Shown: positions 1,369-22,562, counted from the stretch's first letter. The stretch is DNA of 39,732 bases from Flavobacteriales bacterium (GCA_020630395.1 JAHDBM010000020.1:1-39732); one strand, 5' to 3'. Program-made: numbers and translations. The notes: generated by a model from the sequence alone, not told the origin.

Positions 1369-2019
1369 ATGACAATAAAAAATTATAAAGTTGTGTTTTG
1401 CTTCTTTCTTGCTTTTTGGGTAGGGATGTTTCAACATGACATTTTAGCACAAACTGGACCTAAAACTAAAATTAGAATATTTGATCAAACAACTGTTTTT
1501 GACAGCATTATATCTAGAAACGACTCAATATTATTTTTTAGTAAAGATACTATTGTAGGTGTTAGTTTAGATACCATATCGGATCAAGATTGGTTTAAAA
1601 TTGGGACTACTAATAGTCCTACCTCTATTAATGATAGTATTTTTACCAATGGAGATATACAATTAACTGATTATCCCGAAACAAGAGCTGATGATACTAT
1701 AGCGCAACTAAATATGTTATATACTGATGCTGCTGGTAACGTTAAAAGCGGTAGAAGAGAAATAGTGCCCCCAGCTGTAAGTATTAATATAGCAACTACT
1801 AGTTCAGGGAATACATTTAATTATTACAATCATTACACTACACAAGTTACCAATAATGGATATACTCCAATCGCTATTACCAATCTCGATTTTGAAGTGG
1901 TATATTTTGATCCTGGCATTTTTGCGAATGTTTCTATCAGTCCATTAGGAATACTTCAATATGATGTCATAGCAACAAGTGCTTATGGTGTTATAGATGT
2001 AAGATTTTACACGAAGTAA
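1369..2019 (+). CDS. exported protein of unknown function, first gene of adhesin operon
   Basis: I do not recognise this 216-residue protein. The frame can be opened at a TTG at 1357, but I chose the ATG at 1369 because it places a standard signal peptide at the start (TIKNYKVVFCFFLAFWVG..., cleavage probably after ILAQ). The mature part is rich in Thr, Ser, Asn and Asp with no cysteines, and its last 80 residues read as beta-strands (TTQVTNNGYTPIAITNLDFE and VYFDPGIFANVSISPLG). It has no recognisable T9SS sorting domain, lipobox or transmembrane segment after the signal. The next gene starts 6 bases after its stop, so the two are very probably co-transcribed. A periplasmic or surface accessory to the large adhesin-like neighbour is a reasonable guess from context only. 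Confidence 0.75.
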   Translation: MTIKNYKVVFCFFLAFWVGMFQHDILAQTGPKTKIRIFDQTTVFDSIISRNDSILFFSKDTIVGVSLDTISDQDWFKIGTTNSPTSINDSIFTNGDIQLTDYPETRADDTIAQLNMLYTDAAGNVKSGRREIVPPAVSINIATTSSGNTFNYYNHYTTQVTNNGYTPIAITNLDFEVVYFDPGIFANVSISPLGILQYDVIATSAYGVIDVRFYTK

Positions 2020-2025
2020 TTCTAT

Positions 2026-5000: not shown

Positions 5001-6063
5001 TATTGTAGATGATTTAACCTTATGGATGCGATCGGATTTTGGTATTGATACTGTAAATGGAAATGCAAACTCTTGGCAATCTATTACAGGTGCGGTTACT
5101 ATTGATACTATTGACGCGATAAAACCCACTTATTTCGATAATACTTCTAATGTATTTAATTTTAACCCTTATGTAGATTTTTCTGGGGGTCTAAGTAGGT
5201 TGTCTGACTCCGTATATGACCTGATTTTTGATACAAATGTTACTGTTTTTGTTGTTCGAATTCCAGGAGCTGCTGGTGAAACTACTTTTGCTTATAACAA
5301 TAGCTTAAATCAGGTATATAATGCAGCTCATACTGCTGGTGTGAGTTCAAGAAACGATCAAATAAATTACGGAACATCAGTAATACCTCAAATTATAGGA
5401 TATAGTACTTCGGCAACTACATTTAACGTGATTGAAGATGGAACTGTAACGCTTGATCCTTTAGTTATTCCTTATGTCTTTTTAGATTCAATTGGTGAAT
5501 TAGTTATTGGAGGAAATAGTATAGGAGGAGATTTTTCTGGTCAAGTGGCTGAATTAATTTTTTACGATAGAACCTTAAATAATACTGAAATTCAAAAAGT
5601 AACCTCATATTTGGGACTAAAATATGGTATAACACTAGATCATAATTATAGATCGTCTATTGATAAAAAAGTTTGGGACTTAGAAATTAATAAACATTAT
5701 AATGACCAAGTATTAGCTTTAGTGAATGATAATGGTTACGATTTGAAAAAAGAAAAAGTATATAATTGGAATGAAAATTGTACTTTTTCAACAACATTCG
5801 AATCAGATTCAATTCATTACCTTATGATTGGATATAGTAACGAACTAGATGAGTACTTTGTATCTAATTCTTCTACAAGTAAAGACTTAACCATAGACTT
5901 TGCTAACGATATCGTTTCTTCCATAACTATTATTAATAAAAATGATAATACAGAAAAACAGTTATTTGTAAAAAATAACGTTATTAGTGTTAAAATAAAT
6001 CAAAACGAGAAACTTTACATGAAGTTTAACCGTAAAAACATTATAACTTCTATTCATGATTAG
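2026..6063 (+). CDS. large exported IgGFc-binding-like / LamG-like surface protein
   Basis: The 1345-residue product starts with a signal peptide (MLKRILQIFIFAFISFNGWSQ). Residues ~20-475 resemble the bacterial IgGFc-binding-protein N-terminal family: an N-terminal beta region, then NGIEVYSNKPIAMNNGSW and ILVETDQPVLVYQKM strands. Residues ~480-555 form a short Ig-like piece with cysteines. Two concanavalin/LamG-like units follow, each opening with a DLVWLKADDG or DLTLWMRSDFG motif and closing with a QSYLAIKWGITL or TSYLGLKYGITL motif (~565-800 and ~990-1208). The first unit is followed by the usual companion beta domain (HPYIHDIAGISKD, IWGNNDS, KREWKVQE; ~800-985); the second is not. The last ~135 residues are unassigned and lack a clear T9SS sorting domain. 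The role is probably cell-surface adhesion or ligand binding. It overlaps the next gene by 8 bases. Confidence 0.85.
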   Translation: MLKRILQIFIFAFISFNGWSQLDDIHYLPPLVVDENLKNSTGNCQDHFIVLTTPEINSFKVFLQDGNSNPITNYTVINGTGNAITGFDLSKTNPLKIRLSTVANASHNSHGIISRIELNAINTQDVIIAKGSKPFFCNIRHISGAQGGSLAAKGRNALGTSFRVGFANHVQDPGKNYLNNFISVMATQNNTEVVFTNFKNNVTFFGDPAVAGDSIKVVLDAGESYAIGQEIENLPAVADLNDYNGIEVYSNKPIAMNNGSWLSGGSGGARDIGWDQNVPVSKAGNEFVLIQGNGATTIESATVVATNFFTNVFLNGSAIPATTLIFPGDYYVVPGTNYTADQNILVETDQPVLVYQKMFGSTSIATNSMNLIPPLNECSGAGEVILHDTRFFGSGELFMTTRLGSTVEVYENGVITGTYNPVATNITGASGANWRTIKHIVTTPNPVDVWVESDNIINVGFFGASGAVGAAGYFSGFETPPVILGDSSLCDVDSMYLYVRDTFGLASFNWYRNGVLVDSGGDDSLLITDFGFYTVEANYRNCIGTSELSYPYSADQSLCSAPGGVVADLVWLKADDGPLNTLLQIPQQNDQISIWFDRSNFSNDFLENDIGLTVTGPFFEDNFMNFNPSVGFFGNSGMKIDSSLLQHKDTAGTIFAVVKMNTNQGIIFSDQDEDSTSGVSLKGNGATEIDNNSYLTPTGTLNTSQIYTVRRDSAIGGFVDVDNFLNADLISSANVPITSEPTFFSTLGYKYKDNLPAGVGSMMNGYVSEVMLFSSRLTNLELRQVQSYLAIKWGITLNGDYLSSYGSVVWDSTRNHPYIHDIAGISKDFDAALRQKQSKSENLDDILAVGFDTVLRSNNENQGVFPVDSVYFIWGNNDSAIDITTLDLPLTVNSKRRLKREWKVQETNPSAIDRFVKLDLWFDLSILGTSTFAGAGNYYLLIDEDGDGDFNTGNIREELFSSRRGDTVYFNNIDIDDFEVFTLGASIISPGCIVDDLTLWMRSDFGIDTVNGNANSWQSITGAVTIDTIDAIKPTYFDNTSNVFNFNPYVDFSGGLSRLSDSVYDLIFDTNVTVFVVRIPGAAGETTFAYNNSLNQVYNAAHTAGVSSRNDQINYGTSVIPQIIGYSTSATTFNVIEDGTVTLDPLVIPYVFLDSIGELVIGGNSIGGDFSGQVAELIFYDRTLNNTEIQKVTSYLGLKYGITLDHNYRSSIDKKVWDLEINKHYNDQVLALVNDNGYDLKKEKVYNWNENCTFSTTFESDSIHYLMIGYSNELDEYFVSNSSTSKDLTIDFANDIVSSITIINKNDNTEKQLFVKNNVISVKINQNEKLYMKFNRKNIITSIHD

Positions 6064-6625
6064 ATTTAGTTTCATCATATATGTTTTACTAGTTGGAACA
6101 GCACTTTTCTCTCAAACAAGAGAGTTACACATGAATACTCAAGTTGCTATTCCTTCTTGTGACCCAGATACATTACTTGTATATGATACAACTACTTACT
6201 CACATGATATTTTTGGCATAGCCAGAGATACATCTAAATTATTTGTTCAAAAAAAATCAACCTCAGTAAGTTATAAAGCGGTAACCATTGAAGTAACCTG
6301 TGATATTCAATCGGATAACTACTTAGTTTGTGGTCATGATAATGGCGCACTTGCTAGAGCACCTATTGGATCGGAAATAAACGCTTTACAAAGAACTTGG
6401 TATGCTGATATGACTGGAGCAATTGGAACTGTTAATCTAGAGCTAGATTTAGCTCTTATTACAGCAATTATTGGAAGTCCTCCGACTGATGTTAAAATTT
6501 TAGTAGCCAATAACCCTGGCTATGTTAATTACGCCACCATAGAAGCTACTTCAGTAGTGGCTGGAATTGCTTACTTTGAGGGTATTCCTCTATATAATAA
6601 ATATTTTACTTTTTCTGCACCTTAA
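6056..6625 (+). CDS. small exported protein resembling the domain that follows LamG units
   Basis: This 189-residue protein has a signal peptide (MIRFSFIIYVLLVGTALFSQ). Its ATG lies inside the last codons of the 1345-residue gene, giving an 8-base overlap that suggests coupled translation. Residues ~80-189 look like the C-terminal half of the beta domain found after the first LamG-like unit upstream: LVCGHDNGALARA parallels FIWGNNDSAIDI, LQRTWYADMTGAIGTVNLELDL parallels KREWKVQE...VKLDLWFDL, and VKILVANNPGY parallels YYLLIDEDGDG. The alignment is by eye. The function is unknown. Because the second LamG unit of the neighbour lacks exactly this piece, the two proteins may form a complementing pair, but that is inference. 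Confidence 0.75.
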   Translation: MIRFSFIIYVLLVGTALFSQTRELHMNTQVAIPSCDPDTLLVYDTTTYSHDIFGIARDTSKLFVQKKSTSVSYKAVTIEVTCDIQSDNYLVCGHDNGALARAPIGSEINALQRTWYADMTGAIGTVNLELDLALITAIIGSPPTDVKILVANNPGYVNYATIEATSVVAGIAYFEGIPLYNKYFTFSAP

Positions 6626-8315: not shown

Positions 8316-9509
8316 TTATTTTTTCATTACATATGCGCCATCATTAAATTCTTGAGCTTTATCTAAATATTCTTTTGCCTCACTTCTAGATGACCATGAA
8401 CCCGCTACAACTTTACTTAAACCACCTCCGGGTAAAATTCGAGCATTAGAAAACCCTGCTTCTTTTAATTTATCTACTAAACCTTCAGCATTGGATTTGT
8501 TGCCAAATGCACCAACTAATATATGGTAATTTAAATCAGACGAAAGAGGTGTTTCATCCATAATAATTTCCTCCTCTTGTTGTTCAGTTTCTTCTTCTAT
8601 ATCATCTTTTGTTTCTTCTTCAGAATTAGATTCATCTTCTTCAACCTCCTCTTCATTCATGATATCTTCCTCGTTTAGCATAGTTGAATCTATCGTTTCT
8701 TCCTCAATTGAATCAGTAATTATTGGGTTGTCATCAACATTATTTATTTCTTCATCACTATTGGTATTTCCTAATGATATATCATCAGTTAATTCTTTTG
8801 CTTCTCCAGTAAATGAAGCTATCCAATTATTCACTTCTTTCCATTTAAGCCCTACAAAAGTTCCTCCTCCAGCTAATAACAATAAAATTATTAGCCAAAC
8901 AATCATTCCTTTTCTCTTTTTCTTCTCTTTTTTAGGCTTCTCTTTCTTTAGTTTATCCTTTTTTTCAGAAGTTTTAGCAGTTACTATAGGTGTTTCTTTT
9001 GCTGTAACAATCTTCTCTTCTTTTTTCTCCTCTTTTTTTTCAATTACATCACCTACAATTGATTCTTGCACAACTTCTTCTTTTATCTCTTCTGGTTTTG
9101 ATAAAACTTCTTCTACTTCATCTTTAACTTGCTCAATATTATCTGTATCTACATTAATTATTGGTGCTATTACTTGTTCCTCTTCTTGTTCTTCTTCAAT
9201 TACGCTTCCCTCTGGGGAAAAAACTATTTTGTCATTTTCATTTTTTGAAAAAGAACCAAGTCCAAAAATCGTATACGTATTTCCTTTATCTAAATCCGTT
9301 TGAATATCCCTTACATGACTCGCAATCATGTTTAATACTTCTTGCGGATCTTTTCCTTCTTTCTCAGCTATATAGTTTTGAAGCTTACCATCATTAAATT
9401 TTAAAATACCATTAAACATCAAGGATTTCCCTGATCCCATTAATGCTCCAAAATCTGGAATGATTACTGTAGATTCAGTTTTTAGTAATTCAATAATGTA
9501 CTTATTCAT
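8316..9509 (-). CDS. membrane-anchored HU-CCDC81-like / SPOR domain protein
   Basis: The 397-residue protein has three parts. Residues ~1-105 match the Bacteroidota HU-CCDC81 type of DNA-binding-like domain (MNKYIIELLKTESTVIIPDF, DPQEVLNMIASHV, YTIFGLGSFSKNENDKIVFS). Residues ~110-200 are charged and Lys/Glu-rich, ending in a basic stretch just before one membrane segment at ~201-222 (GMIVWLIILLLLAGGGTFVG). A long acidic linker (~235-320) leads to a SPOR domain at ~323-397 (YHILVGAFGNKSNAEGLVDK ... KVVAGSWSSRSEAKEYL), a fold that binds denuded peptidoglycan at division sites. The orientation implied is HU-like domain in the cytoplasm and SPOR in the periplasm. This architecture is recurrent in Bacteroidota and is thought to be cell-division related, although the HU part is not proven to bind DNA. 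It is preceded by its own plausible promoter. Confidence 0.9.
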   Translation of the reverse strand: MNKYIIELLKTESTVIIPDFGALMGSGKSLMFNGILKFNDGKLQNYIAEKEGKDPQEVLNMIASHVRDIQTDLDKGNTYTIFGLGSFSKNENDKIVFSPEGSVIEEEQEEEQVIAPIINVDTDNIEQVKDEVEEVLSKPEEIKEEVVQESIVGDVIEKKEEKKEEKIVTAKETPIVTAKTSEKKDKLKKEKPKKEKKKRKGMIVWLIILLLLAGGGTFVGLKWKEVNNWIASFTGEAKELTDDISLGNTNSDEEINNVDDNPIITDSIEEETIDSTMLNEEDIMNEEEVEEDESNSEEETKDDIEEETEQQEEEIIMDETPLSSDLNYHILVGAFGNKSNAEGLVDKLKEAGFSNARILPGGGLSKVVAGSWSSRSEAKEYLDKAQEFNDGAYVMKK

Positions 9510-9530
9510 ATTGGTTGTAATTAGATTACT

Positions 9531-9561
9531 TTAAATTATTCAAAAAACACCTGCAATCAAA
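9531..9561 (-). promoter_or_regulatory. putative Bacteroidota-type promoter for the SPOR gene
   Basis: On the minus strand, TTTG (9558-9561) is followed after exactly 19 bases by TAATTTAA (9531-9538), fitting the -33 TTG / -7 TAnnTTTG arrangement with two mismatches in the -7 box. The predicted start site would leave a leader of about 15-18 bases before the ATG at 9509. Confidence 0.35.
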
Positions 9562-9572
9562 GTTTAAATTAA

Positions 9573-12500
9573 TTAAAGGGCACCTGCATCAATTAACATC
9601 TGTTTATAGACTTTTCGTGATCTTTGAAGAACAGACTTATTCTTTCTTGTAAATGCATTAACGTTTGCCTTTGCATCTATCAATAATTGAACCGTTTGTA
9701 TATTCTCTTTCCCTCTTTTTCTTACTGCCAAATGTAAAGGAGTCTCATCAAATTTATTCCGAGCATCAACATCAGCTCCAGCATCTATAAACAATTTAAC
9801 AATTTCGTGTTTCCCTTTTTTATCAGCAGCTCTATGTAAAAATGTAAAACTTTTTCTTGGGGTTAAATAACCTGTATTTCCGTCATGAGCCAGAAGTAAC
9901 TCAATCATTGTTTTATCCCAATTATTTACAGCTTCATGCATTACTAATCCACCAGAAACATCTGCTTTAGCATCTATTAATACTTTTACTATTTGAAGTC
10001 TGTTTCTCTTTACAGCTAGAAAAACACCATCAGTTGGATTTGCTCCTTTTTCAATAAACTTACGAATTACCTTTTCGCTCGATTTTCCAGCAGCTTCTTT
10101 AATGTAATTTTTAACAGCTGCTCCATTATCCAATAAATAAATCAGTACTTCTCCTTTGTTATATTGTAATGCTGAAGCCATACCGTCATCTGGATTAGCT
10201 TTATTTTCAACTAATAACCTAACCATTGGCATCCATCCTTTACCTGCAGGAATGTCTAACCCTATTGGTTTAGCCCCTTTACTTAATAGATAAGTAACCA
10301 TTGGTATATCATTATTATTGATAGCTGCTAATCTTCCGTTTTCTGCTTTTGCTCCACCCTGCTCAATCAACATCTTAACCATTGGTAGGTTTTTATTGGT
10401 TGCTGCTTTTCCTATAAGAGTTGGATCCTTTACTTTTGCTCCTGCATCTAATAATAATTTTACAATTTGAGTGTGTTTGTTTTCTACTGCCCCTTTTAGT
10501 CCTAAATTAGGATCTGCTTTTTTGCTTAATAATAATTTAACCCACTCAATTTTCCCTTCCTTACTAGCCGCAGCTATATGATTTGATGCTTTAGCATTAC
10601 TATTTAAAGCAATGGTACCCATTTTTATATTGTTTTTTAAATAGGCCTTATTTAAACCAACATTAACATCTGCATGGTATTTATTAATTAAATTATCAAA
10701 AAACACAACATCAACTTTATTAACTGCATAATCAATTGCGCCTGTCCCATGAGCTCCTGCTTCTAACGCAACAATCATGGCTGGTTTTTTACTTTTAGTT
10801 ATCGCATATGCTAACGCTTCATCTTTAGAGCCTCCATGTGTAATCCCATCTTTAAGGATTTCCATATTATTCTTGTCGATTGCTTTATGGATAGGATCTA
10901 CGTTTATAACCCTAACTCTATTTTTCGTTAGCGTTTTAAATAGTTTTGTATCATTTCTTTCGGCTGCTGCTAATAAACTTAAGTGATCTGCTTTTCCAAC
11001 CTTAAGTAATTCATCTACCATAGCTGCGTTACCTTTTTTAATTGCATTTGTAATCATAACTGAGTTCGCTACAGCTCCATGTTTAATAAACTTCTTTGCT
11101 AATGATACATTATTTTTTGAGACAGCATAGTTAAGTTCAGCTTCACCAACTTGTACAAACGAAATAGACAACAAATAATTAATCATTGGTATATCATTTC
11201 GTGATATCGCTTTTTTAATGTGCCTCAGTTGTGGTTCTGCATGATGTTTTACTAATAACTTAGCATCATTAATATTACCTGTTCCAATTTCATTATATAG
11301 TGCTTCTGGGTTTGCTCTTACTCCTGTTCTTAATAAAAGCTTAATCATTTCTGGGTTTCGATATTGAGATTGAGTTGCTAAGACTAACTGACTAGCTCTT
11401 GCCATATTACCATGTTTATACAACCATTCTACAACATAAGGGGGGACTTTAGCTTTTATAGCCTCCTCTACTATATTATCAGCTTTTATATTACCTCCCT
11501 TTTTCATGAGGTAATCCAGCTCGCTAATTTTAGCATATCTTGCTGCAGCTCTCATTTGTTCATCACTTGGAGGGGGTGGTGGTGGGCCTTTTCTTTCGAC
11601 TAATTTAACCGTGTAAGTAATTTTAACTTCTTCATCATCTCCCCTATCTTCAAACCCTTTAAAAGAACCATTTATTGGTACACCCAATCGTAGGTCTCTA
11701 ATATTAATTGATTTTGATCCTTTCAAGTGATCATAATCTACATTACTGTTCCATTCCATTACTTTTGATACCATTTGTATCCATCCTTGTCCAGCATCTA
11801 TAGACGAATTAGCAACATAAAAATCTTTTGTGTGATATACGTTAACTGATTGTCCTTCTTCCGTATCATCACTTCTATTTACCATTGATTTTCCGTAAGC
11901 AAAAGGAGTTGACCCTTTATTCGATTTAATATTACTAGATACTTTTATTAAAACACTTCCGTATAGCTCTAAACCATCACTTCCAATACCTTCATCATCT
12001 GTAGTAGTAATTTGCTTAATCGTTACTGTGAAGTGACTATGATTATACGGAGTTGTTGCTTTTCTACCATTGCTTACTGGAGCAGTATATGTATCTCCAA
12101 CAAATACTTTTTCTAATTCTTTTCCTAAATCTTCGAATGCTTTAGCCATATACTCTCCTGCCTCTACTATTCCTTCGGCTGCAGCTTCTGCGCCTTCTAC
12201 CATTGCCTCACCAACAACCTCAGCTCCCTCTACAATATAACCTCCTAAATCTTCAAATGCAGTTTCTAGCTCTGCTCCTAATTTTTCAAAACCATTTGCA
12301 ATTTCATTATCTAATGAACCAAAGAAATCTATTACGTCTTCGCCTATAGCATCTACAATTAAATCGGTAAACATATCTTCCGAGATATTTAAATCTACCT
12401 TAACTGTTTCTTTAAGAGTTTTACCTGCAATTGTCATATCTACTTCTAGGTTAACTTTTGCTTTCATGGATGTTACTTCACCTTCGAAAGAGAGTTTGCG

Positions 12501-14972
12501 AACGTTTAATGCTTCTTTTAACAATCCTTCAACCACATAGCTTCCAGCTACAGCCATACCTCTATCCATCTCTGCAAAAGCATCTACCGTTTCACTTGCA
12601 AGATCAACAAACGCTTGTTCAAAATCATTTTTCCCTTTAGATTCAGCTAATACTTTCTTGGCATCCTTATATGCTTCTTGGCTCTTTTTACTTTCGGTTT
12701 CAATGAATTTTAATAATTCATCTGCTACCATAGTTTGTAGCTTATTTTCAAATGCCACCTTTGCATATAAGCCACTAGTTGGTGTAATTTCTCCTCCTTT
12801 AATATGAGCTGTAGCTGTTAAAGCACCTCCAGCAATTTTACCTGTAGTTTCAAATTCAAATCCTGTTTTATCAATTTTAATAAAAGATTCATTTGTTATT
12901 CCTAAAATGGTTACACTACCATCTAATTTAAAATGAGGATTGGTTGCATTTAATCCCAAACTAATCATTGGCCCTCCAATCTTTCCGTTTACATCTGGCC
13001 TAGAAGATTCTATAGCAAAAAGCTTCATTCCTCCTTCTTCTATTGCAAAACGATCCATAGAACCATATGCACTAATACCACTTTCACCAACAGAAAAACC
13101 AATAAGGGCATTCATTCCTAAAAATTTCAATTTTGCACTATCTAATGCTAGTCCTGGGTAATAAGTTTGACCAAATAACTCGACTTCTTTAGGTACAATT
13201 TTAACTTTAGCAGATTCTATTCCAGTATTTAATGCATCACGTAAATCCCCTTCGATTTTTGCATCAGAAAAAGCTTCGATAAAAGCCAAAGGTGTCATGT
13301 TTTGCACCTCAGCTACTAACATGGTTTTAGCTACATCAGCAATATTAATTTTTGCTGCAATAGAACCGCAAATATGTTTTCTTGAATCCTTAACTGTTCC
13401 TAAACGAATATTACCTCCCAAACTAACCACATTAATAAAAGGAAATGTAGTTCCTATTCCTGCTCCAAGACCAAGACTTCTAATACCAACTCCTGGAATT
13501 CCAAAAGGTTCTTTCCATTCGGCTTGAGGGACAATGCATGATTCTGGTCTCTCGGCTCGTTTTCCATCAGCAGCTAGTCCAGCTTCAAATTCTAAAGACA
13601 TACCAGATGGAGATGCTGCTCCAATAATTCCACCATAAATGCTTACCCGTTCTTCTCCTGCTTTAAATGATCCTGCCCCTTCTAACCTTAATTCAATTGT
13701 TCCTGCTGCATTTAAAACTAACCCTGCTCCAATATTATCAAAAGAAACTTCTTTGTTTTCTCCAATACTTAGATCCAACCCTAACTCCGCAAATAAACTT
13801 ATAGAAGTAAATGTTGGAGATATAGATCCAGAAAGAGTTATATCCGTAACCTTTAACATCTCTGCCATTTCTTGAGGCAGTTTCATAGATGACATTAAGT
13901 TAAATCCTTTTTTAACATTAAAACTTGCTGTGCTTGTTGATGCTTCGTCTAAAAATTTAATCGGAATAGCTGTTTGTTTATCGGATACGATAAAATAAGA
14001 CCCTGACATATCTAAATCATCAAGAGCTGCTATATTAGAACTTAAGCTTGAAAATTTAAAAGATGCTGGAGGGCGAATCGCTAATAAGGTTTTTTGCACT
14101 CCAGCTTTCCTTTTTAAATCTAATATGATGCCTCCAACTGATGATTGGGCTGTGAACTTAAGCTCTTTTTCACTAGGAATAATATTAATACTAGCCTTTG
14201 TTAGTTCTAAATCTTTAAACGCTTGTGGTGTAGCTTCTAAAAAGGATACTGCTTCATTAGGTAGTGTTGCTTCAATTACATTTTTAAGGTTAACTTTTTC
14301 AATGCTCATTTTTATGCCAGCTTTACTTGAATTATTTGATAACATTGCGGTAACAGAGACTGGTATTTCTCCAAAACTTGCCAATGCGCTCACTTCTCCT
14401 GTAATCTCTCTTGATGGTAATTTTGGGTTATTTACAGCTAAAGAGAACTCTACATCATTCATAGCAAAACTTCCTATTCCTAATAATTCCCATTTTTTTG
14501 CAGCAGCAACTGTTGCCGTCATATTAGTAGGCGCGTATCCACTGGCACCAAATTTTACGGCTAAATTCTTAACCCATACACCAGCTTCTAATGGGAATTC
14601 ACTTGGCAAATAAGCTTTTAACTTTCCATCTACTAATTCGTCTAAAAGCTTAAAATCTATGGTAGTTCCTTCAGGTAATTCTATAGAAAGATTCTCAATA
14701 CGTTTTGCTTTAGAATAAGATCCGAAGAGTACTACATTTTGTTTCTCAAAAACTTCTATAGCTCCTGTAATATCTCTTCCTCCATCTTGCCTTTTAGTGT
14801 GATCTATAGCATTCATTACAAACTTCCCTGCTCCAAACACAGCAGTCATTGCTTCTTTTAGCTGCGTTTTAATATCATCTTCAGGGGATACAATATGTAT
14901 GTCATGTTTAACTGAATTTGAAAAAGTAACTGAGAAGGCAAAAAAGAAAAGAAAAAAGTATAGTAGCTTCAT
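9573..14972 (-). CDS. giant exported protein with beta-rich N-terminal half and C-terminal ankyrin-like repeats
   Basis: The 1799-residue product begins with a signal peptide (MKLLYFFLFFFAFSVTFSNS). Residues ~25-870 are an unclassified, strongly beta-patterned region made of loosely recurring strands (for example SITGEVSALASFGEIP-type pieces, IGAGLVLNAAGTIELRLEGA, GNIRLGTVKDSRK). Residues ~880-957 are an Ala/Glu/Gly-rich amphipathic helical stretch (EGAEVVGEAMVEGAEAAAEG). A beta domain (~965-1120) ends in six consecutive prolines at about 1129. Residues ~1130-1799 are about 20 ankyrin-like units; most are only ~27-31 residues long, and only the last few show the canonical pattern (DETPLHLAV). 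No transmembrane segment, lipobox or T9SS sorting domain is visible, so a periplasmic location is likeliest. The gene is divergent from the DUF4407 operon. Ankyrin repeats normally mediate protein-protein contacts; the rest is unassigned. Confidence 0.88.
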   Translation of the reverse strand: MKLLYFFLFFFAFSVTFSNSVKHDIHIVSPEDDIKTQLKEAMTAVFGAGKFVMNAIDHTKRQDGGRDITGAIEVFEKQNVVLFGSYSKAKRIENLSIELPEGTTIDFKLLDELVDGKLKAYLPSEFPLEAGVWVKNLAVKFGASGYAPTNMTATVAAAKKWELLGIGSFAMNDVEFSLAVNNPKLPSREITGEVSALASFGEIPVSVTAMLSNNSSKAGIKMSIEKVNLKNVIEATLPNEAVSFLEATPQAFKDLELTKASINIIPSEKELKFTAQSSVGGIILDLKRKAGVQKTLLAIRPPASFKFSSLSSNIAALDDLDMSGSYFIVSDKQTAIPIKFLDEASTSTASFNVKKGFNLMSSMKLPQEMAEMLKVTDITLSGSISPTFTSISLFAELGLDLSIGENKEVSFDNIGAGLVLNAAGTIELRLEGAGSFKAGEERVSIYGGIIGAASPSGMSLEFEAGLAADGKRAERPESCIVPQAEWKEPFGIPGVGIRSLGLGAGIGTTFPFINVVSLGGNIRLGTVKDSRKHICGSIAAKINIADVAKTMLVAEVQNMTPLAFIEAFSDAKIEGDLRDALNTGIESAKVKIVPKEVELFGQTYYPGLALDSAKLKFLGMNALIGFSVGESGISAYGSMDRFAIEEGGMKLFAIESSRPDVNGKIGGPMISLGLNATNPHFKLDGSVTILGITNESFIKIDKTGFEFETTGKIAGGALTATAHIKGGEITPTSGLYAKVAFENKLQTMVADELLKFIETESKKSQEAYKDAKKVLAESKGKNDFEQAFVDLASETVDAFAEMDRGMAVAGSYVVEGLLKEALNVRKLSFEGEVTSMKAKVNLEVDMTIAGKTLKETVKVDLNISEDMFTDLIVDAIGEDVIDFFGSLDNEIANGFEKLGAELETAFEDLGGYIVEGAEVVGEAMVEGAEAAAEGIVEAGEYMAKAFEDLGKELEKVFVGDTYTAPVSNGRKATTPYNHSHFTVTIKQITTTDDEGIGSDGLELYGSVLIKVSSNIKSNKGSTPFAYGKSMVNRSDDTEEGQSVNVYHTKDFYVANSSIDAGQGWIQMVSKVMEWNSNVDYDHLKGSKSINIRDLRLGVPINGSFKGFEDRGDDEEVKITYTVKLVERKGPPPPPPSDEQMRAAARYAKISELDYLMKKGGNIKADNIVEEAIKAKVPPYVVEWLYKHGNMARASQLVLATQSQYRNPEMIKLLLRTGVRANPEALYNEIGTGNINDAKLLVKHHAEPQLRHIKKAISRNDIPMINYLLSISFVQVGEAELNYAVSKNNVSLAKKFIKHGAVANSVMITNAIKKGNAAMVDELLKVGKADHLSLLAAAERNDTKLFKTLTKNRVRVINVDPIHKAIDKNNMEILKDGITHGGSKDEALAYAITKSKKPAMIVALEAGAHGTGAIDYAVNKVDVVFFDNLINKYHADVNVGLNKAYLKNNIKMGTIALNSNAKASNHIAAASKEGKIEWVKLLLSKKADPNLGLKGAVENKHTQIVKLLLDAGAKVKDPTLIGKAATNKNLPMVKMLIEQGGAKAENGRLAAINNNDIPMVTYLLSKGAKPIGLDIPAGKGWMPMVRLLVENKANPDDGMASALQYNKGEVLIYLLDNGAAVKNYIKEAAGKSSEKVIRKFIEKGANPTDGVFLAVKRNRLQIVKVLIDAKADVSGGLVMHEAVNNWDKTMIELLLAHDGNTGYLTPRKSFTFLHRAADKKGKHEIVKLFIDAGADVDARNKFDETPLHLAVRKRGKENIQTVQLLIDAKANVNAFTRKNKSVLQRSRKVYKQMLIDAGAL

Positions 14973-14992
14973 TTAAACTGGATTTGTGGTTA

Positions 14993-15000
14993 CGAAAATA
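14993..15000 (-). promoter_or_regulatory. putative -7 box for the ankyrin giant
   Basis: The minus strand reads TATTTTCG, five of six matches to TAnnTTTG, about 20 bases before the ATG at 14972. I see no good -33 TTG at the expected distance, so this is weak. Confidence 0.3.
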
Positions 15001-15051
15001 ATCTTTTTGTATCAACTAACTCTATATGAATACATCTAATACAAATTATGC

Positions 15052-15059
15052 TAGTTTTG
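15052..15059 (+). promoter_or_regulatory. putative -7 box for the DUF4407 operon
   Basis: TAGTTTTG is a perfect match to the Bacteroidota -7 consensus TAnnTTTG. It lies 17 bases before an in-frame ATG at 15077, so it supports that start over the upstream ATG at 15026, which would lie before the transcription start. No TTG is present at the ideal -33 distance. Confidence 0.4.
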
Positions 15060-15076
15060 TCTTTATAAATTATCTC

Positions 15077-15532
15077 ATGAAGTACATAGTGCATGTTTTG
15101 CTTTATCTTTTTCATCATTTAAAATTGGTGTTTAATGTTTTTCAAATCATTTCTAACATATTAACTGCATTACTAAAAAAGCAATCAATAGTAATCAATA
15201 TGTTTGCTGCATTTAAACAAAATGGAGTAACCAAATTAGTGTTTAAAACCGAAGGAGTCTTTTTTATCTATGTTGTAGGGTTTGGATTTATAGATCAACA
15301 TGAAGGTGAGGTCAATATTCCTTTTGCCAATAAAAAAGTTAAGGCTTTATTTATTGGGCTAAAACCTTGTGTTAAAACTATACCCGTATCTCCGGAACCT
15401 TATACCTTAACTTTTAAACTTAAGAATAATCGTGCTCCAATTATTCGTATAAGCCATAAACCAAAACTCATTAATAAATTACAGATTAACGATAAAATAT
15501 TTAAAAATAGCTCAATAAACGATATATCATGA
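15077..15532 (+). CDS. small protein of unknown function, membrane helix plus beta domain, first gene of DUF4407 operon
   Basis: I do not recognise this protein. With the ATG at 15077 it has 151 residues; an upstream in-frame ATG at 15026 would add 17 residues without a signal-like character. Residues 1-~37 are a hydrophobic to amphipathic helix (MKYIVHVLLYLFHHLKLVFN, then VFQIISNILTALL). The remaining ~110 residues are beta-patterned (VTKLVFKTEGVFFIYVVGFG, GEVNIPFANKKVKALFIG, SPEPYTLTFKLKNN), resembling a small Ig-like fold with a single cysteine. Its stop overlaps the next start in an ATGA arrangement, which strongly supports that it is a real gene translated together with the DUF4407 protein. 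It is probably membrane-attached and may be a partner of that protein. Confidence 0.75.
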   Translation: MKYIVHVLLYLFHHLKLVFNVFQIISNILTALLKKQSIVINMFAAFKQNGVTKLVFKTEGVFFIYVVGFGFIDQHEGEVNIPFANKKVKALFIGLKPCVKTIPVSPEPYTLTFKLKNNRAPIIRISHKPKLINKLQINDKIFKNSSINDIS

Positions 15533-16800
15533 ATAATGAAACTTCTTTTTATCAATCTCCAAAAGCAGGGATTATTATGCGTCAATTATGGAAAGCTGCA
15601 GGTGCTGATTCCTATATCTTATCTCGATCTACTTATTCTGATCAAGTAAAATATGCTTGTTTAGGTGGAATTGTTGTAGCCACTGGATTTATGGCTGCTA
15701 TGGCAGGAGGATATGCTTTTTATACCATTTTTGAGCCTAAAACTGCTGAAGTTGTAGATAAAATTAACATGGTTTCAGAAAACGTAATGACTAAATCTAC
15801 GCATTGGCCAACCGTTATTCAGTCTTCTATTTTTGGACTGATTTGGGGACTTATTATTTTTAATATCGATCGGTTTATTGTTGCTGCATCTGGAAAAGGA
15901 GATGGAACTGAAAAAATTACTTGGAAAGAAATTAAGGGATCTGTACCAAGACTTATAATGGGGCTTATAATTGCGTTAACAATCTCTAAACCCATTGAAA
16001 TTAGAATGTTTCAATCGGAGATAAACGCAGCACTTTATGAAAAGCAAAAAGACGAACGAAAAAAGCTAGAAGAAAAAGTAAACATCTTGTATAATGACGA
16101 ATTTGTAAAACTTGATGAGTCACTGGATAAAATTGAAACCAAAAGAGAGGAATATGTGGCCAAAGTAGAAGAATATGATGTGCGTTACCAAAAAGAGGTT
16201 TCGGGCGGACAAGGCATGAGAGGTAAAGGTGAAGGTCCTGTTGCTAAAACACTAAAAACAGAACGTTTAAGATGGGAAGACAAGTTAAACTCTTTTGATA
16301 AATCTCATGAAGCCGAAAAACTAGCTTTGTTAGACCGTAAAAAAGATTTACAAATTGAGCGTAAAAATGAAATAGATGCCAATAAATCGGTTGCTGCTGG
16401 TATGGATGGTTTATTAGAACGGCTTAAACTGGCTCACGAAATAGCTGGTTTTTGGATTAGCTTATTCATTACCCTTCTTTTTGTTGTAATTGAGCTTACC
16501 CCTATTTTCTTTAAAATGATGCTGGTTAAAGGCCCGTATGATTTTATGCTCGATAATACCAAAGACTTAATTAAAGCAAAAAACGGCATTCAAGTTGTTC
16601 ATGATTTTTACAAAGACAAAATTGGTATTTCTCGAGATCTTGTTATTAACCATAAGGTAAAAAAGAAGCACGATATGATTCAAGCTCAAAATGAGATAAA
16701 TGAACATATTTTGGCTAAATGGAAAGAAGATCAAAAGAAAAAAATTGATGAAAATATAGGTGATTACATCCAAGATATTGGTAAAGAATCTAACGATTAA
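15529..16800 (+). CDS. DUF4407 family integral membrane protein
   Basis: The 423-residue protein shows the DUF4407 layout. Residues ~41-66 (CLGGIVVATGFMAAMAGGYA) are the first membrane helix, ~90-120 the second, ending in the family-typical NIDRFIV motif, and ~140-162 the third (VPRLIMGLIIALTISKPIEI). A long charged coiled-coil region of about 140 residues follows (~165-300, rich in Lys, Glu and Asp), then a fourth helix at ~303-335 (IAGFWISLFITLLFVVIELT) and a charged C-terminal tail. The four-helix pattern with a large hydrophilic loop between helices 3 and 4 is what is known for this family; its molecular function has not been established. It overlaps the upstream small gene by 4 bases and is followed 15 bases later by a divergent paralogue, so the three probably form one operon and perhaps one complex. 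Confidence 0.88.
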   Translation: MNNETSFYQSPKAGIIMRQLWKAAGADSYILSRSTYSDQVKYACLGGIVVATGFMAAMAGGYAFYTIFEPKTAEVVDKINMVSENVMTKSTHWPTVIQSSIFGLIWGLIIFNIDRFIVAASGKGDGTEKITWKEIKGSVPRLIMGLIIALTISKPIEIRMFQSEINAALYEKQKDERKKLEEKVNILYNDEFVKLDESLDKIETKREEYVAKVEEYDVRYQKEVSGGQGMRGKGEGPVAKTLKTERLRWEDKLNSFDKSHEAEKLALLDRKKDLQIERKNEIDANKSVAAGMDGLLERLKLAHEIAGFWISLFITLLFVVIELTPIFFKMMLVKGPYDFMLDNTKDLIKAKNGIQVVHDFYKDKIGISRDLVINHKVKKKHDMIQAQNEINEHILAKWKEDQKKKIDENIGDYIQDIGKESND

Positions 16801-16815
16801 TTCTTAATAATTGGC

Positions 16816-18522
16816 TTGAAAGAACAATCATCCATAAGATGGCTCATTAAGCGAACCGCTTGGATCGTTTCTGGTGAAAACCCATATTTAGTGCAAAAAG
16901 CAGATCGAAAATCTCAGCTTTGGCATTACTTTATTGGGGTATTCATGAGTATGGTGATATTAGTTAAAATTACTTCACTATTTATCTTTTTTCATAGTCT
17001 TATTGAGAGTATATGGATTTCCTTAACTATGTCTGTTTTAGTAAGCATTTCCATCTTTAATATTTTAAGGCTGCTTATTATTAGTTTTTCTGTACCAACA
17101 ATTCCTGTTCCTTTTGAATCAGGAATGCCTGTCTATTTTTCGAGATTAATTCGGTATTCAATTGTTATTCTATTAGCACTTTTTATTGCACAACCTATTG
17201 CTGTTTATTTGTTTAATGAGGATTTAGAACCTATTGTAACTAAACACAGGACAGAAGAACTTGAAAAATTAAACCAAGAGCTTAACACCATGTACTTGGA
17301 AGAAGTTGCTACCATTAATGAAATTATAGCATATTCGAATAAAGCAGATCAAGCGTTTTATAACAATCAATTAATAGAAAAAGAAGCTTCGCATGACAAA
17401 CAATTATTAGTTGTATCTAACCTAATTAGTAATTCTAATTATTTTATTTATCAAATTAAACAATTACATAAACAAGGATCAACTGAGTTTATATTGTTTC
17501 AGTTGTTTATTGTTTTATTATTTTACCTACCTGTTTTATTTAAGCGAAGAGCTCAAATTTTTGGAAATGTGCAGACATTAAAAAAAGAACATGATATGCG
17601 CCTTGTTTCAAGCGAATATGAAAGATTTAAAGCTCAATATAATGCTATATTATTAACTAAATATGGAGTTGAACCACATGAGCATGAGGTATTTCAAGAT
17701 CCTCCCTTTAATACAACCTTAACAGAAAAAGAGTATAAGGGACAAAAACTATTTATTCGAGAGTTTAGAACCAATAAAGATGCTCAATTGGGACTAGGAA
17801 TATCTAAACACTATATAACATCAACTTTTAAAGCTAAGTTTAAATCGAATATGATTTCGGATAAGCAAGAATTTAGCTTGAACAATATATACGACATTGA
17901 ACTTGTTTCCCCAACTGAACATTCTCTTGAAAATCATACAAAGACTCAACATAATCATAACCAATTTAATCCATTCTTTAAACTAGTTACTGCCTATTAT
18001 AAAACCTCAACAGGTATTGTATCTGAAAAAAAAGAAGATGCTTTATTTTTATTAGGACTGGAAGATGTAAAAATAGAGGATATAGATATAGAACACACTG
18101 TTGTTGATATAGATGAAATACATGGTACCCTTAAAGGCAAGTTAAGTGCTGAACTAACTTATAGAGATATAGATGAACGTTTACGTATTAATTACATTGA
18201 GGCCGATAAACAAAATCGACCTGATATTTTACCAAATAAACAATCTACTGCTTTTCCTAATTTCATTAAAGCTATGTATCTATTGCCTATTGGCTTATTT
18301 ACTATAGGTTTATTATACTATGGTTATACCCATTCTGGGCATTTGTTTTTTGTATCGTTTATTATATTACTTGGTTTAACATATGCTCGCTTTAAGCTCC
18401 ATAAAATCATTAAAAAGAAATGGATAAAAACTGTAATGACGATTGCCATAGTGTTGTTATTTATTAATGTAGTTGCACATAGTATTAAATTTTTAATTGA
18501 GATGGTAATGTCTTTGTTTTGA
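16816..18522 (+). CDS. divergent DUF4407-like membrane protein with extended C-terminal region
   Basis: The 568-residue product starts at a TTG. No ATG or GTG is available before residue 39, and the N-terminal segment (WLIKRTAWIVSGENPYLVQK) parallels the conserved start of DUF4407 proteins, so the TTG is needed. Helices lie at about 33-60, 62-90 and 108-132 (SIVILLALFIAQPIAVYLFN), then a charged coiled-coil loop (~135-215), a helix at ~220-242 (FILFQLFIVLLFYLPVLF), a hydrophilic region of about 240 residues, and three more helices at ~485-568. The first part follows the DUF4407 plan, but the family's Asp-Arg after helix 2 is replaced (FNILRLLI). The C-terminal half is additional and unassigned. 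I infer a partner of the preceding DUF4407 protein that has diverged after duplication. Confidence 0.8.
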   Translation: MKEQSSIRWLIKRTAWIVSGENPYLVQKADRKSQLWHYFIGVFMSMVILVKITSLFIFFHSLIESIWISLTMSVLVSISIFNILRLLIISFSVPTIPVPFESGMPVYFSRLIRYSIVILLALFIAQPIAVYLFNEDLEPIVTKHRTEELEKLNQELNTMYLEEVATINEIIAYSNKADQAFYNNQLIEKEASHDKQLLVVSNLISNSNYFIYQIKQLHKQGSTEFILFQLFIVLLFYLPVLFKRRAQIFGNVQTLKKEHDMRLVSSEYERFKAQYNAILLTKYGVEPHEHEVFQDPPFNTTLTEKEYKGQKLFIREFRTNKDAQLGLGISKHYITSTFKAKFKSNMISDKQEFSLNNIYDIELVSPTEHSLENHTKTQHNHNQFNPFFKLVTAYYKTSTGIVSEKKEDALFLLGLEDVKIEDIDIEHTVVDIDEIHGTLKGKLSAELTYRDIDERLRINYIEADKQNRPDILPNKQSTAFPNFIKAMYLLPIGLFTIGLLYYGYTHSGHLFFVSFIILLGLTYARFKLHKIIKKKWIKTVMTIAIVLLFINVVAHSIKFLIEMVMSLF

Positions 18523-18582
18523 ATTAAATGATACATGTTAGGCAATGTATAACTATCTTAGTACACTTAAGCTCTCTATTAC

Positions 18583-21408
18583 ATGAAAAAACTGTTATTC
18601 CTAATCACATTATTCGCTTTAGCCAATACACTTAAAGCAGGAACTATTGTTGTTCAAAATACAAATGATAATGGTGTTGGATCTTTGAGAGACGCTATTT
18701 CGAATGCAGTTAACGGAGATACTATTCGTTTTAACCCTAACCTAATTTTAAGCGGAAGTGATACCGTTAAGTTAACTAGCGAAATAGCTTTTAATAAATC
18801 TATAGTCTTCAAAGGTTTGTATAATTCTACCGATACTTTATCTATTAGTGGGGAAGATTCAGTAAGAATATTTAACCTAGGCGCTAATATAAATAAGAAT
18901 GTAGTGTTGGATAGCATGGTATTAATTAAAGGTAATTCCTCAAGTAATGGAGGAGCTATACACTTTCTTAATGGTGAACTAACCATCTTAAATTCTTCTA
19001 TTTCTAATTGCACTGCAAAAGGAGGAGGAGCTATATATGTTAATACACCTTGGAACGGCACCCCCACTGTTTCTATAACTATTCATAATTCATCCCTTAA
19101 CAACAATATTGCCAGTGATACTGCTTTTGGTGGCGGAGCAATATCTGCTTATTGTTCAGATTTTTTTCAAAATGTACCACTTTTAAATCTAGACATAAGT
19201 AATTCTGATTTATCGAATAATGTTTCTGCTGGATCTGGTGGTGCTATAAATTCTATTATGTTTCAAAACCAAGGAGACTCTTGTGATATAACTATAACGC
19301 TAACGAACTGCACTATAAAAAATAATTCGGCAAGTAAAGATGGAGGAGGGATCGCAACAGCATCTAGTATTATTAATTCTAATGGATTAAGGGGTAGAAA
19401 TATTAATGTAACATTATTAAATAGTTCAATTATAAATAATCAGGCATTAGAAGTTGGTGGCGGTATAACGAATAGCTGTGTTAACAACTCTAGTCCAGAT
19501 ACAGTTGTTGATTTTCACCTTAATGTTACAAACTCTCAGATTACAGGAAACACAGGATTTAATGGTGGAGGTATCGCTAATTATGGTTCTGGAACGAATA
19601 CCCTTAACCATGTTTCGTTAACAAATTCAACAGTAACAAATAACACTGCAAATAATGATGGTGGAGGAATATTTTATTACACTGAAAGAAATCGTTATTT
19701 GAATTTAGACATACACAATTCAGAAATTTCCTACAACAATAGTAATAATGGAGGTGGTATATTCGCTTACCTAAGTGATAACAACAACTCTGCAGACACC
19801 AACTATATTATAGCTACTATTTCTAATAGTAACGTTTCAAATAATAATGCTATTGCCGGAAACGGAGGGGGTATATCTTTATTTGGTATTGCTACACATC
19901 CTACTCAATTTTTGTTTTATAGTTTAGATGTATTTAACTCAACCATAAATAAAAATTCTTCAATTGGAAGTGGTGCCGGAATTAGTGCAACTCTAGGTCC
20001 ATCAAATAACCTACAGGGAGTTCAAAATATAACGATTGATAAATCAACAATAAGCGAAAATAATTCAGGTACTTTTGCGCTTGGATTAGAATTTAATGCG
20101 CCTTTTCAATATACTGCCAATACCATTATTTCGAACAGTACAATTTATAACAATGGGTTTTTAAAAACTGATGATAATAATATGTCACTTTCTAATACAA
20201 TTATAGCTAATAGTATACCAGGAGAAACAGCTCTAGCATCACAAACAGTTAATTCTTTAGGTTATAATATTTTTAGTGATTCTAGCGTAAACGGAAGTAT
20301 TGCATCCGATTTTTTAAATGTAACCCCTCTTCAATTAAAGCTAGATACCTTAACAAACAATGGAGGAGTTAATTTAACACATGCCCCTTTATGTGGCAGT
20401 ATTGCAATAGACGCAGGAAATCCTTCTGATATTAGTGATGCCCAAAACGGACCAATAAACGGAATAAGAAGAGATATTGGTGCCGCAGATTATGTAGATA
20501 TGATAGATACTAGTTTAACTGTTTTAGGTTGTGATAGTATAAGTTTTATGGGGACGACCTACTACAATGACACAATTATTTATACAGTTTACACATCTAC
20601 TTTTGGATGTGATAGTGCCGTTTATACGCCTATTGAGATTAACGCTCCTTTTACAATTGGAGAAACTATTGTAGCTTGTGATAGTTTTGAGGTAAGAGGT
20701 AACTGGTATTATACAACTCAAGTTATAGTGGATACATTTGCCTCACAAGTAACCGGATGCGATAGTATTTTAAGCACAACCCTACTTATCAATTTATCTG
20801 ACACCATTATTCATCCTATTATTTCTGGATGTGATTCTATATTTTATAATTGGGATGCTTATTTTGTTGATACATTAATGGAAACCATTACACCTGGAGG
20901 AGCTTCTAATGGTTGTGCCTTGTATGAGTTCCAGCAAATTTATGTTGATACTGTTAATAATGGAACCTCTTTAAATAATTTAATCATTACATCAAACCAA
21001 AATGGAGCTACCTACCAATGGATAGATTGTACCAATGGAGATACCGCTATTACAGGAGAAACAAACCAAAGCTTTACCGCAACTTCTAACGGAGATTATG
21101 CTGTAATTGTTACTAATGGTTACTGTATTGATACCTCTTCATGTGTTACCATTGCAACTGTTGGTCTAAATAGTTTGTCTCAAACTAAGTTTAGTATTTA
21201 TCCTAATCCAACAAATGATTTTTTTACTATTGATTTTGGAACGAAAAGTAACACATCTTATAACATTAGTATTATTGATGCTATTGGTAAAACTGTTAAA
21301 CAGGTTTCAACTAATAACCAAATCCAAACAATTGATTTAAGTAGTTACCAAAATGGGGTTTACTTTGTAAGAGTTAAGGAGGCTTTTATAAGAATTATTA
21401 AGCAGTAG
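18583..21408 (+). CDS. T9SS-exported right-handed beta-helix surface protein
   Basis: The 941-residue product has a signal peptide (MKKLLFLITLFALANTLKAG). The mature part begins with the hallmark TIVVQNTNDNGVGSLRDAIS of bacterial beta-helix surface proteins. Residues ~120-540 carry many short repeats around GGAI/GGGI and NN.A, as in polymorphic outer-membrane-protein and pectate-lyase-like helices. Residues ~609-632 hold the IDAGNP ... RRDIGAADY closing motif typical of 'choice-of-anchor' proteins. Residues ~645-790 contain repeats with a GCDSI/ACDSF core, then an Ig-like piece (~795-862). Residues ~868-941 are a type A sorting domain (FSIYPNPTNDFFTI, IIDAIGKTVK, YQNGVYFVRV). I see no catalytic residues of a polysaccharide lyase, so an adhesin or surface-layer role is more likely than enzyme. 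Its stop is only 4 bases from that of the convergent gene, leaving no room for a terminator between them. Confidence 0.9.
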   Translation: MKKLLFLITLFALANTLKAGTIVVQNTNDNGVGSLRDAISNAVNGDTIRFNPNLILSGSDTVKLTSEIAFNKSIVFKGLYNSTDTLSISGEDSVRIFNLGANINKNVVLDSMVLIKGNSSSNGGAIHFLNGELTILNSSISNCTAKGGGAIYVNTPWNGTPTVSITIHNSSLNNNIASDTAFGGGAISAYCSDFFQNVPLLNLDISNSDLSNNVSAGSGGAINSIMFQNQGDSCDITITLTNCTIKNNSASKDGGGIATASSIINSNGLRGRNINVTLLNSSIINNQALEVGGGITNSCVNNSSPDTVVDFHLNVTNSQITGNTGFNGGGIANYGSGTNTLNHVSLTNSTVTNNTANNDGGGIFYYTERNRYLNLDIHNSEISYNNSNNGGGIFAYLSDNNNSADTNYIIATISNSNVSNNNAIAGNGGGISLFGIATHPTQFLFYSLDVFNSTINKNSSIGSGAGISATLGPSNNLQGVQNITIDKSTISENNSGTFALGLEFNAPFQYTANTIISNSTIYNNGFLKTDDNNMSLSNTIIANSIPGETALASQTVNSLGYNIFSDSSVNGSIASDFLNVTPLQLKLDTLTNNGGVNLTHAPLCGSIAIDAGNPSDISDAQNGPINGIRRDIGAADYVDMIDTSLTVLGCDSISFMGTTYYNDTIIYTVYTSTFGCDSAVYTPIEINAPFTIGETIVACDSFEVRGNWYYTTQVIVDTFASQVTGCDSILSTTLLINLSDTIIHPIISGCDSIFYNWDAYFVDTLMETITPGGASNGCALYEFQQIYVDTVNNGTSLNNLIITSNQNGATYQWIDCTNGDTAITGETNQSFTATSNGDYAVIVTNGYCIDTSSCVTIATVGLNSLSQTKFSIYPNPTNDFFTIDFGTKSNTSYNISIIDAIGKTVKQVSTNNQIQTIDLSSYQNGVYFVRVKEAFIRIIKQ

Positions 21409-21412
21409 GTGG

Positions 21413-22549
21413 TTAAAATGCTTCTCCTATAAACAAATAAATGCCGTAACCATCTGGGTTTAAACCAACATCTAACCGTGTGTAAACATCTCTTTGAGGA
21501 AATAATAATACACGTAAGCCTCCTCCTGCTGTCCATAGTATTTTGTCAAAATTTAAATTAGGGGAAACAGACCCTATACCTGCAAATAAAGCTCCCCCAA
21601 GTCTTTTGCTAAATTTAAATGGTAACCACCTATGCTCTGCTTGTAACGCTAGCATGTTTTTATCTCGATATCTACCTAAATAATATCCTCTCATCATCAT
21701 TTCTCCGCCAATCATGCTGAGTTGATTGAAAGGCACATCTCCTTGTGAAAATTGACCTATAAACTGTCCTGCCAACACATTTCTTTCGGTTAAATCAAAA
21801 AATATACGGTTATCTAAAAATAAGGTACCTAATTTGTTAGTCGAACCCCATGCTTGGTCATAAAACAAATATCCAACTTCAGATAATAATCCATGCCTTA
21901 CGTTTAACACATTGTGTCTATTATCATATACAAGACCAGCACCTAAGCCTAAATTACCATAACCATTTTGCCCTAATATATTATTTTGGGGTATTATTCC
22001 ATGAAACCAATCAAAACTTACCTTACTTAACCGTTCGTAATTTAATTCTAATCCGAAATACCAGTTATTATAAACCTTTCTCAAAAGCCTCTCTCTAATT
22101 GAAATAATATTAGCGTTTGCAATAGCAAGTTCTTCCCCCGAAATATTTTGTCCTATTCCATAATAAGCCAAAGGATAACTCTGGAACTTTAACTTTCCTA
22201 ACCCAAACCACTTGTCTTTATTAGTATAAATTGCATGATCGAAATGCACGCCATATTGACCTGCTAACGTGATGAAAGAAAAGTTGCTAATTTCGCTTAA
22301 ACGATTTGTCTTATCTTTCTTAGCGTGATAAATATAAAGCGCAGATGCCCCTATTTCCCAACTAGTTTCTGGTGCATAAGCCAAAGTAGGATAAGCAATA
22401 AACTTTGATGTTTTAGTAGTATCTGTGTCGTTAAACATCTTATTGAATAGCTTAACAACTTTAGATTGAGCTTGGAATGAGTTAATAAAACAACAAAGTA
22501 ATACAATCAATATTCCTTGTTTAATAAAATTAAAACGATTTCTTATCAT
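21413..22549 (-). CDS. Omp85/BamA-family outer membrane barrel protein
   Basis: With the ATG at 22549 the protein has 378 residues. An in-frame ATG at 22582 would run into the preceding gene and precede the signal peptide (MIRNRFNFIKQGILIVLLCC ... FQAQ), so I reject it. The body is a continuous series of amphipathic strands characteristic of the bacterial surface antigen (D15/Omp85) barrel: YPTLAYAPETSWEIGASAL near the start, GLGAGLVYDNRHNVLNVRHG, FNQLSMIGGEMMMRGYYLGR (the family's RGY-type motif), MLALQAEHRWLPF and a final strand GYGIYLFIGEAF ending in Phe. It has no POTRA domains, so it is a short, barrel-only member rather than BamA itself. It starts 14 bases after the comM stop and is probably co-transcribed. 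Its substrate is unknown. Confidence 0.88.
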   Translation of the reverse strand: MIRNRFNFIKQGILIVLLCCFINSFQAQSKVVKLFNKMFNDTDTTKTSKFIAYPTLAYAPETSWEIGASALYIYHAKKDKTNRLSEISNFSFITLAGQYGVHFDHAIYTNKDKWFGLGKLKFQSYPLAYYGIGQNISGEELAIANANIISIRERLLRKVYNNWYFGLELNYERLSKVSFDWFHGIIPQNNILGQNGYGNLGLGAGLVYDNRHNVLNVRHGLLSEVGYLFYDQAWGSTNKLGTLFLDNRIFFDLTERNVLAGQFIGQFSQGDVPFNQLSMIGGEMMMRGYYLGRYRDKNMLALQAEHRWLPFKFSKRLGGALFAGIGSVSPNLNFDKILWTAGGGLRVLLFPQRDVYTRLDVGLNPDGYGIYLFIGEAF

Positions 22550-22562
22550 TAAAGTATTGCTA

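Follow-up and report, generated by a model that had tools for sequence, protein, structure and literature searches.

Three co-directional genes in the window, by which we mean the whole stretch of 39,732 nucleotides analysed here, very probably make up a reduced member of a family of operons with the gene order s-D-d-T-Y. The family is apparently new, since no described counterpart turned up in open-access papers or in the family libraries used, and the novelty belongs to it and not to the link with a giant ankyrin protein that the initial annotation had claimed. No role is known for the large DUF4407 family, of which one clade is now tied to a fixed operon. The presence in that operon of a membrane-tethered, transglutaminase-fold putative enzyme gives DUF4407 its first testable context, in culturable genera that include Flavobacterium, Pedobacter, and Chryseobacterium.

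Gene Content of the Window

As Table 1 shows, all four of the open reading frames described earlier are present at their positions. The operon genes show the ATGA overlap and the 15-base spacing described earlier, and the distance of about 100 bases between operon and giant holds with the small protein s starting at 15077. The s frame is open from 15026 (168 aa) to the stop at 15532, and the start at 15077 agrees better with the family alignment than that at 15026. A Pfam search with s matched no family. Both of the proteins that follow score above the curated DUF4407 cut-off of 31.3 bits, w08 with 209 bits over the full model and w09 with 40.2 bits (E 3.3e-10) in a match confined to its N-terminal half, and in the window's genome DUF4407 occurs at this locus only. 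The reading of w09 as a second DUF4407-like paralogue stands for its N-terminal part. What had been taken for a 240-residue insert and three extra helices is instead the N-terminal part of T with transmembrane helices, fused on at the C-terminus. Iterated self-profiling of the giant gives 16–19 repeat stretches over aa 1058–1798, of which about a dozen are strong, and the earlier figure of about 20 ankyrin-like repeats is a fair one.

Table 1. Features of the window and their coordinates
Feature	Coordinates	Strand	Remarks
Giant ankyrin protein	9573..14972	-	1799 aa; signal-peptide-like N-terminus
N-terminal unit of the giant (about aa 29-781)	12630..14888	-	found without ankyrin repeats in other genomes
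Ankyrin-like repeat region of the giant (about aa 1140-1799)	9576..11555	-	Pfam ankyrin families and self-profiling
Intergenic region between operon and divergent giant	14973..15076		
Small protein s	15077..15532	+	151 aa from ATG 15077; operon gene 1; no Pfam family
DUF4407 protein D (w08)	15529..16800	+	423 aa; Pfam PF14362, E 1.3e-61
Fusion protein (w09)	16816..18522	+	568 aa; d plus N-terminal part of T
d part of w09 (aa 10-320)	16843..17775	+	d-family profile 2.8e-64; hhalign probability 100%
T-type beta domain of w09 (aa 331-467)	17806..18216	+	T-family profile; cytoplasmic by predicted topology
Three C-terminal transmembrane helices of w09 (about aa 482-562)	18259..18501	+	hydropathy
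T9SS C-terminal sorting domain protein	18583..21408	+	941 aa; Por_Secre_tail, E 9.2e-17; operon-side neighbour (T9SS cargo)
Omp85-type protein	21413-22582		operon-side neighbour
ComM/YifB	22563-24101		operon-side neighbour
Block missing in congener G001	9511..21412		blastn and gene map

An Operon Family in Bacteroidota

An alignment of DUF4407 proteins of the ~420-aa type was run against 84,980 species genomes in one scan, which yielded 80 loci whose named organisms are all Bacteroidota; relatives contributed 12 further loci. Calling and clustering the ORFs of these loci reveals the order s-D-d-T-Y, mostly with Y included. The protein lengths are 140–220 aa for s, about 415 for D, about 325 for d (about 510 in Flavobacterium), 370–670 for T, and about 168 for Y. 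The gaps are mostly −40 to +20 bases, and 4-base overlaps are frequent. When the loci are labeled with profiles of these position-defined families, the complete set is seen in 65 of 88 related loci and T in 81, a sample that includes one contig twice, under the names L018 and L142. The seven loci without T all stop at or near a contig end. In this conserved operon the small protein almost always accompanies the pair of DUF4407-type proteins, which supports the earlier suggestion that the three genes belong to a membrane system. The window follows the same arrangement of D and then d, as w08 scores 566 bits against the operon-type D profile and w09 scores 203 bits against the d profile. Its small protein is s-like in position, size, and ATGA overlap, and its similarity to the s profile is marginal (hhalign E 0.05).

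The D tree covers at least 11 families (Flavobacteriaceae, Weeksellaceae, Crocinitomicaceae, Sphingobacteriaceae, Chitinophagaceae, Saprospiraceae, Hymenobacteraceae, Spirosomataceae, Cyclobacteriaceae, Leadbetterellaceae, and Paludibacteraceae). In this quick tree members of separate families are interleaved, which indicates horizontal transfer of the operon. The D of the window groups with Flavobacteriaceae (97) on a long branch (1.26), so the placement is not firm, and five genomes from the same family as that of the window are without DUF4407. Judged from these sequence comparisons, the window operon was probably acquired horizontally.

The D protein has four predicted transmembrane helices, with a long helical hairpin (about aa 162–290) between the third and the fourth, and carries a conserved GKGDGT motif in a loop. 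In an AlphaFold2 model the hairpin has pLDDT values of mostly 88–96. At E 0.001 a fold search with the model gave no match, and the matches at Z 9–10 span the long helices only; searching for solved relatives by sequence produced coiled-coil noise only. No MotA/ZorA-like fold is among the matches listed for the D model, which has a pTM of 0.50.

The T protein begins with a beta-rich domain that lacks a signal peptide and continues through transmembrane helices into a C-terminal domain, presumably periplasmic, that usually has a transglutaminase (LapG-like) fold. The motif GDC[DE][TS] is found in a downstream protein of 63 of 89 loci, and Cys450, His478, and Glu503 (numbering of L095) are invariant in an alignment of 36 T proteins. 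The AlphaFold2 model of T has pLDDT mostly >90 in the C-terminal enzyme-type domain. No solved relatives of T were found in a sequence search, and Foldseek alone gave no significant match with the model, PNGase coming first at E 0.1. Structural comparison of the C-terminal domain retrieves LapG, a Parabacteroides protease, PNGase, factor XIII, and transglutaminases at Z 8–9.2, with the top matches in one superfamily; against LapG (4fgo) the Z score is 9.2, with 3.7 Å over 137 residues. On the basis of the modeled fold and of the conserved Cys and His, the T protein of the relatives is a putative enzyme of the transglutaminase-like superfamily. It is followed by Y, a DUF350-like four-helix membrane protein.

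The enzyme domain is exchanged in some of the relatives. At six Flavobacteriaceae loci its place is taken by a Cys-rich tail (VYICNG...YHL.P.C.GLSNC...GRTLCGWE), and 16 loci encode small stand-alone proteins that combine a similar motif with a signal-peptide-like start. Since the motif occurs in proteins with such starts, the tail of T would lie outside the cytoplasm, and the shared motif ties the stand-alone proteins to the operon system. One further clade encodes an OmpA-domain protein (E 2.9e-20) between d and T, with the same kind of N-terminal domain.

The surroundings of the related loci show a further regularity. In 29 of the 80 (L091, L094, L118, L146, L164, and others) there is a TPR-histidine kinase (c5) together with a LuxR-like response regulator (c3), often with a divergent membrane protein (c4), and these genes mostly lie 1–4 kb upstream of the operon. 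Variable co-directional small genes for an HSDR_N protein, an SNase, or Cys-rich small secreted proteins occupy the interval, and L118 and L164 also have another c4 and c3 on the downstream side of the operon. The c3/c4/c5 genes and the operon neighborhood look like a recurrent island with changing cargo. Two other DUF4407 contexts were seen. L021 and L086 carry a variant operon in which DUF4407 is more divergent, two T-type beta-domain proteins occur in tandem, and a T-like protein lies on either side, and at L071:1152-6992 a 588-aa DUF4407 protein comes after proteins that by sequence appearance are of vWA type, kinase-like, and zinc-ribbon.

A Reduced Copy in the Window

The window differs from its relatives in what follows D. 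The alignment of w09 with the family profiles assigns aa 10–320 to d (203 bits) and aa 331–467 to positions 24–168 of T (16 bits, 2e-7). Hydropathy peaks are located at aa 492, 519, and 552, as compared with, for example, 211/231/266 in T of the relatives, and w09 stops right after these three helices, where T of the relatives continues into the periplasmic domain. By sequence comparison w09 is thus d fused to the N-terminal part of T, and lacks the periplasmic domain; the beta domain and the transmembrane helices of T are retained as aa 331–568. At the window locus there is no periplasmic effector domain of T, either of transglutaminase fold or as a Cys-rich tail, and no Y, the gene after w09 being the T9SS cargo. 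The T profile has no match in the window's whole genome, and the same profile gives matches in four operon-carrying genomes used as a positive control. The operon is classed as a reduced variant because the effector domain is missing at the locus.

Such a copy could also be a decaying remnant, an operon on its way out after losing the enzyme part of T along with Y. The absence of both from the locus, and of T from the rest of the genome, would fit with decay, as would the long branch of the window's D. The three ORFs, however, are intact and overlapping or tightly spaced, and near-invariant positions are retained at 81 of 84 in w08 and 6 of 7 in w09. The former figure argues that the DUF4407 core is constrained rather than decaying. 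A frameshifted remnant of the enzyme domain was sought after w09 and there is no room for one, since the T9SS protein begins 60 bases downstream. The six Flavobacteriaceae copies with a replaced enzyme domain demonstrate, moreover, that the scaffold persists without the enzyme. We consider decay unlikely and continue to read the window operon as a reduced variant with a constrained core.

The Ankyrin Giant and the History of the Locus

The initial annotation had proposed a membrane complex of the DUF4407 pair with the small protein, with the giant as its partner outside the cytoplasm. The idea has some appeal, as the giant is exported, lies divergently next to an operon that lacks its usual periplasmic domain, which it might replace, and shares with the operon a block that is missing from G001. 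The distribution of the two, however, does not bear out the partnership. Among 199 related genomes DUF4407 is found in 42, the N-terminal part of the giant in three (the window's own genome, G005 at 62% identity, and G152 weakly), and both in one, which is the window's own. In G005, which belongs to the same family and is without DUF4407, the giant directly follows ComM on two contigs and on the same strand, as it does in the window, where the operon sits between them in the opposite direction. Of 395 genomes of the class, only two others contain the N-terminal part (L179, 27% identity; L171, 21%), in homologues of about 1000 aa that end without an ankyrin region. No giant or ankyrin relative is present among the ORFs of the 88 related operon loci, and no solved relatives of the N-terminal part were found. 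In these genomes and loci, neither adjacency nor co-occurrence of giant and operon was found outside the window's own genome, the pattern that the initial annotation itself had associated with chance adjacency. The sample has one congener, G001, and here the giant, the operon, and the T9SS protein are all missing from an otherwise collinear locus. Taken together, the data from G005 and G001 and the co-occurrence counts argue that giant and operon vary independently. A partnership is very unlikely; the giant is probably a chance neighbor outside the operon system, and a link confined to the window's lineage is possible.

The gene order in G001 runs ComM, a lipoprotein-like gene, w11, and w05, uninterrupted by the block. 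By blastn, 21413-22497 and 9219-9510 of the window match G001 in stretches ending at 12902 and starting at 13098, such that the block measures about 11.9 kb and the flanking genes are 196 bases apart in G001. A mobile-element signature was considered for the block and rejected, as no direct or inverted repeats of at least 10 bases flank it in the stretches compared. Judged from G005, the ancestral place of the giant appears to be behind ComM, and the operon may therefore have entered between ComM and the giant. In G005, however, w11 is located elsewhere, so this order of events is tentative. The T9SS protein of the window is absent from related operons.

This region and its counterparts have several further features. 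G005 has two ComM–giant junctions (L013, L016/L017, L015), with giants of 49% and 62% identity to that of the window, so that either the locus is tandem or duplicated or the assembly combines two strains. At 1357-6625 of the window, w01–w03 have relatives in the same G001 neighborhood and near ComM in G004, and w02 has an IgGFc-binding-like domain. Just past the window's right end, on its own contig C33 (L024:943-7725), are seven co-directional genes of about 311–332 aa with signal-peptide-like starts, apparently tandem paralogues.

A Possible Function

In the explanation that we consider best, and probable, the window holds a reduced, probably horizontally acquired, effector-less copy of an inner-membrane assembly whose normal form displays an exchangeable domain in the periplasm, and the T9SS protein and the giant are probably unrelated neighbors in a variable locus. 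Gene order, domain content, the fusion in w09, and the missing periplasmic domain of T come directly from comparison with the related loci; the function is what we infer from them. Two DUF4407-type proteins would reside in the inner membrane, where D and d may pair. With the N-terminus of D inside, a topology judged from hydropathy and logic would place its hairpin (aa 162–290) in the periplasm with about 60 residues per arm, or roughly 9 nm, and the GKGDGT-motif loop and the tail would face the cytoplasm. The beta domain of T and s, on the cytoplasmic side, would serve as the input and the periplasmic domain of T as the output, such that complete operons would place a periplasmic transglutaminase-fold cysteine enzyme (LapG-like) under cytoplasmic control. 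A small Cys-rich domain would stand in for the enzyme in the six Flavobacteriaceae, and in the subset with an OmpA-domain protein the latter could hold the assembly to peptidoglycan. The copy in the window would have kept the scaffold and the sensing side and be missing the effector. We regard this scaffold-plus-effector mechanism as plausible, at just short of an even chance.

Only tentatively would we extend this to a new envelope system, with a DUF4407 heteromeric scaffold, long periplasmic coiled coils, a cytoplasmic beta-domain readout, and exchangeable periplasmic effectors (transglutaminase-fold protease, Cys-rich domain, OmpA anchor), that spreads horizontally through Bacteroidota, possibly acts in defense or in the response to envelope damage, and is effector-less in the window. 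A more specific alternative is that the family is an anti-phage or anti-foreign-DNA system, in which a coiled-coil membrane scaffold carries a swappable periplasmic effector and, in some cases, a Zorya-like OmpA anchor. The patchy distribution and mixed taxa in the D tree are consistent with defense, as are neighborhoods containing HSDR_N (22 of 80 loci), SNase-like nucleases (11 of 80), and DNase I-like nucleases (6 of 80). The OmpA protein also scores to the PADLOC ZorB models, but that score spans the OmpA part, which is common to many proteins. A PADLOC search with s, D, d, T, and Y was without match, as was a PHROG search. A dedicated defense role is therefore doubtful, and the inner-membrane assembly with a swappable periplasmic domain remains our preferred reading.

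Comparison with Known Systems

In the open-access literature DUF4407 occurs in three papers, one of which also names PF14362, and in tables or lists only; nothing relevant to the operon was found there on transglutaminase-like proteins, LapG, or OmpA in Bacteroidota. The Pfam family, which w08 matches over the full model and w09 over its N-terminal half, comprises membrane proteins of unknown function. Many genomes encode a stand-alone form of about 350 aa without conserved neighbors, whereas the type in the window has about 420 aa and is bound to an operon.

The C-terminal domain of T in the relatives shares its fold and the invariant Cys and His with LapG-type cysteine proteases, and would like them be extracytoplasmic. 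Unlike LapG, this domain is joined by transmembrane helices to a beta domain in the cytoplasm, and its gene lies with those of DUF4407 proteins. The T operons showed no LapD homologue, and in the window the enzyme domain is missing. Two features recall Zorya: a membrane protein that contains a long coiled coil, and the OmpA-domain protein of some relatives, with its score to ZorB. Conversely, we saw in the operon neither a MotA-type protein nor a helicase nor any other protein of Zorya, and the window operon has no OmpA gene. The main text of a paper on PspA partners (PMC11237479) makes no mention of DUF4407 or transglutaminase; it describes DUF350/DUF4178 envelope-stress operons, with DUF350-type membrane proteins and with beta-rich proteins that are predicted to be intracellular. 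Like the s-D-d-T-Y family, these PspA operons combine a DUF350-type membrane protein with beta-rich proteins.
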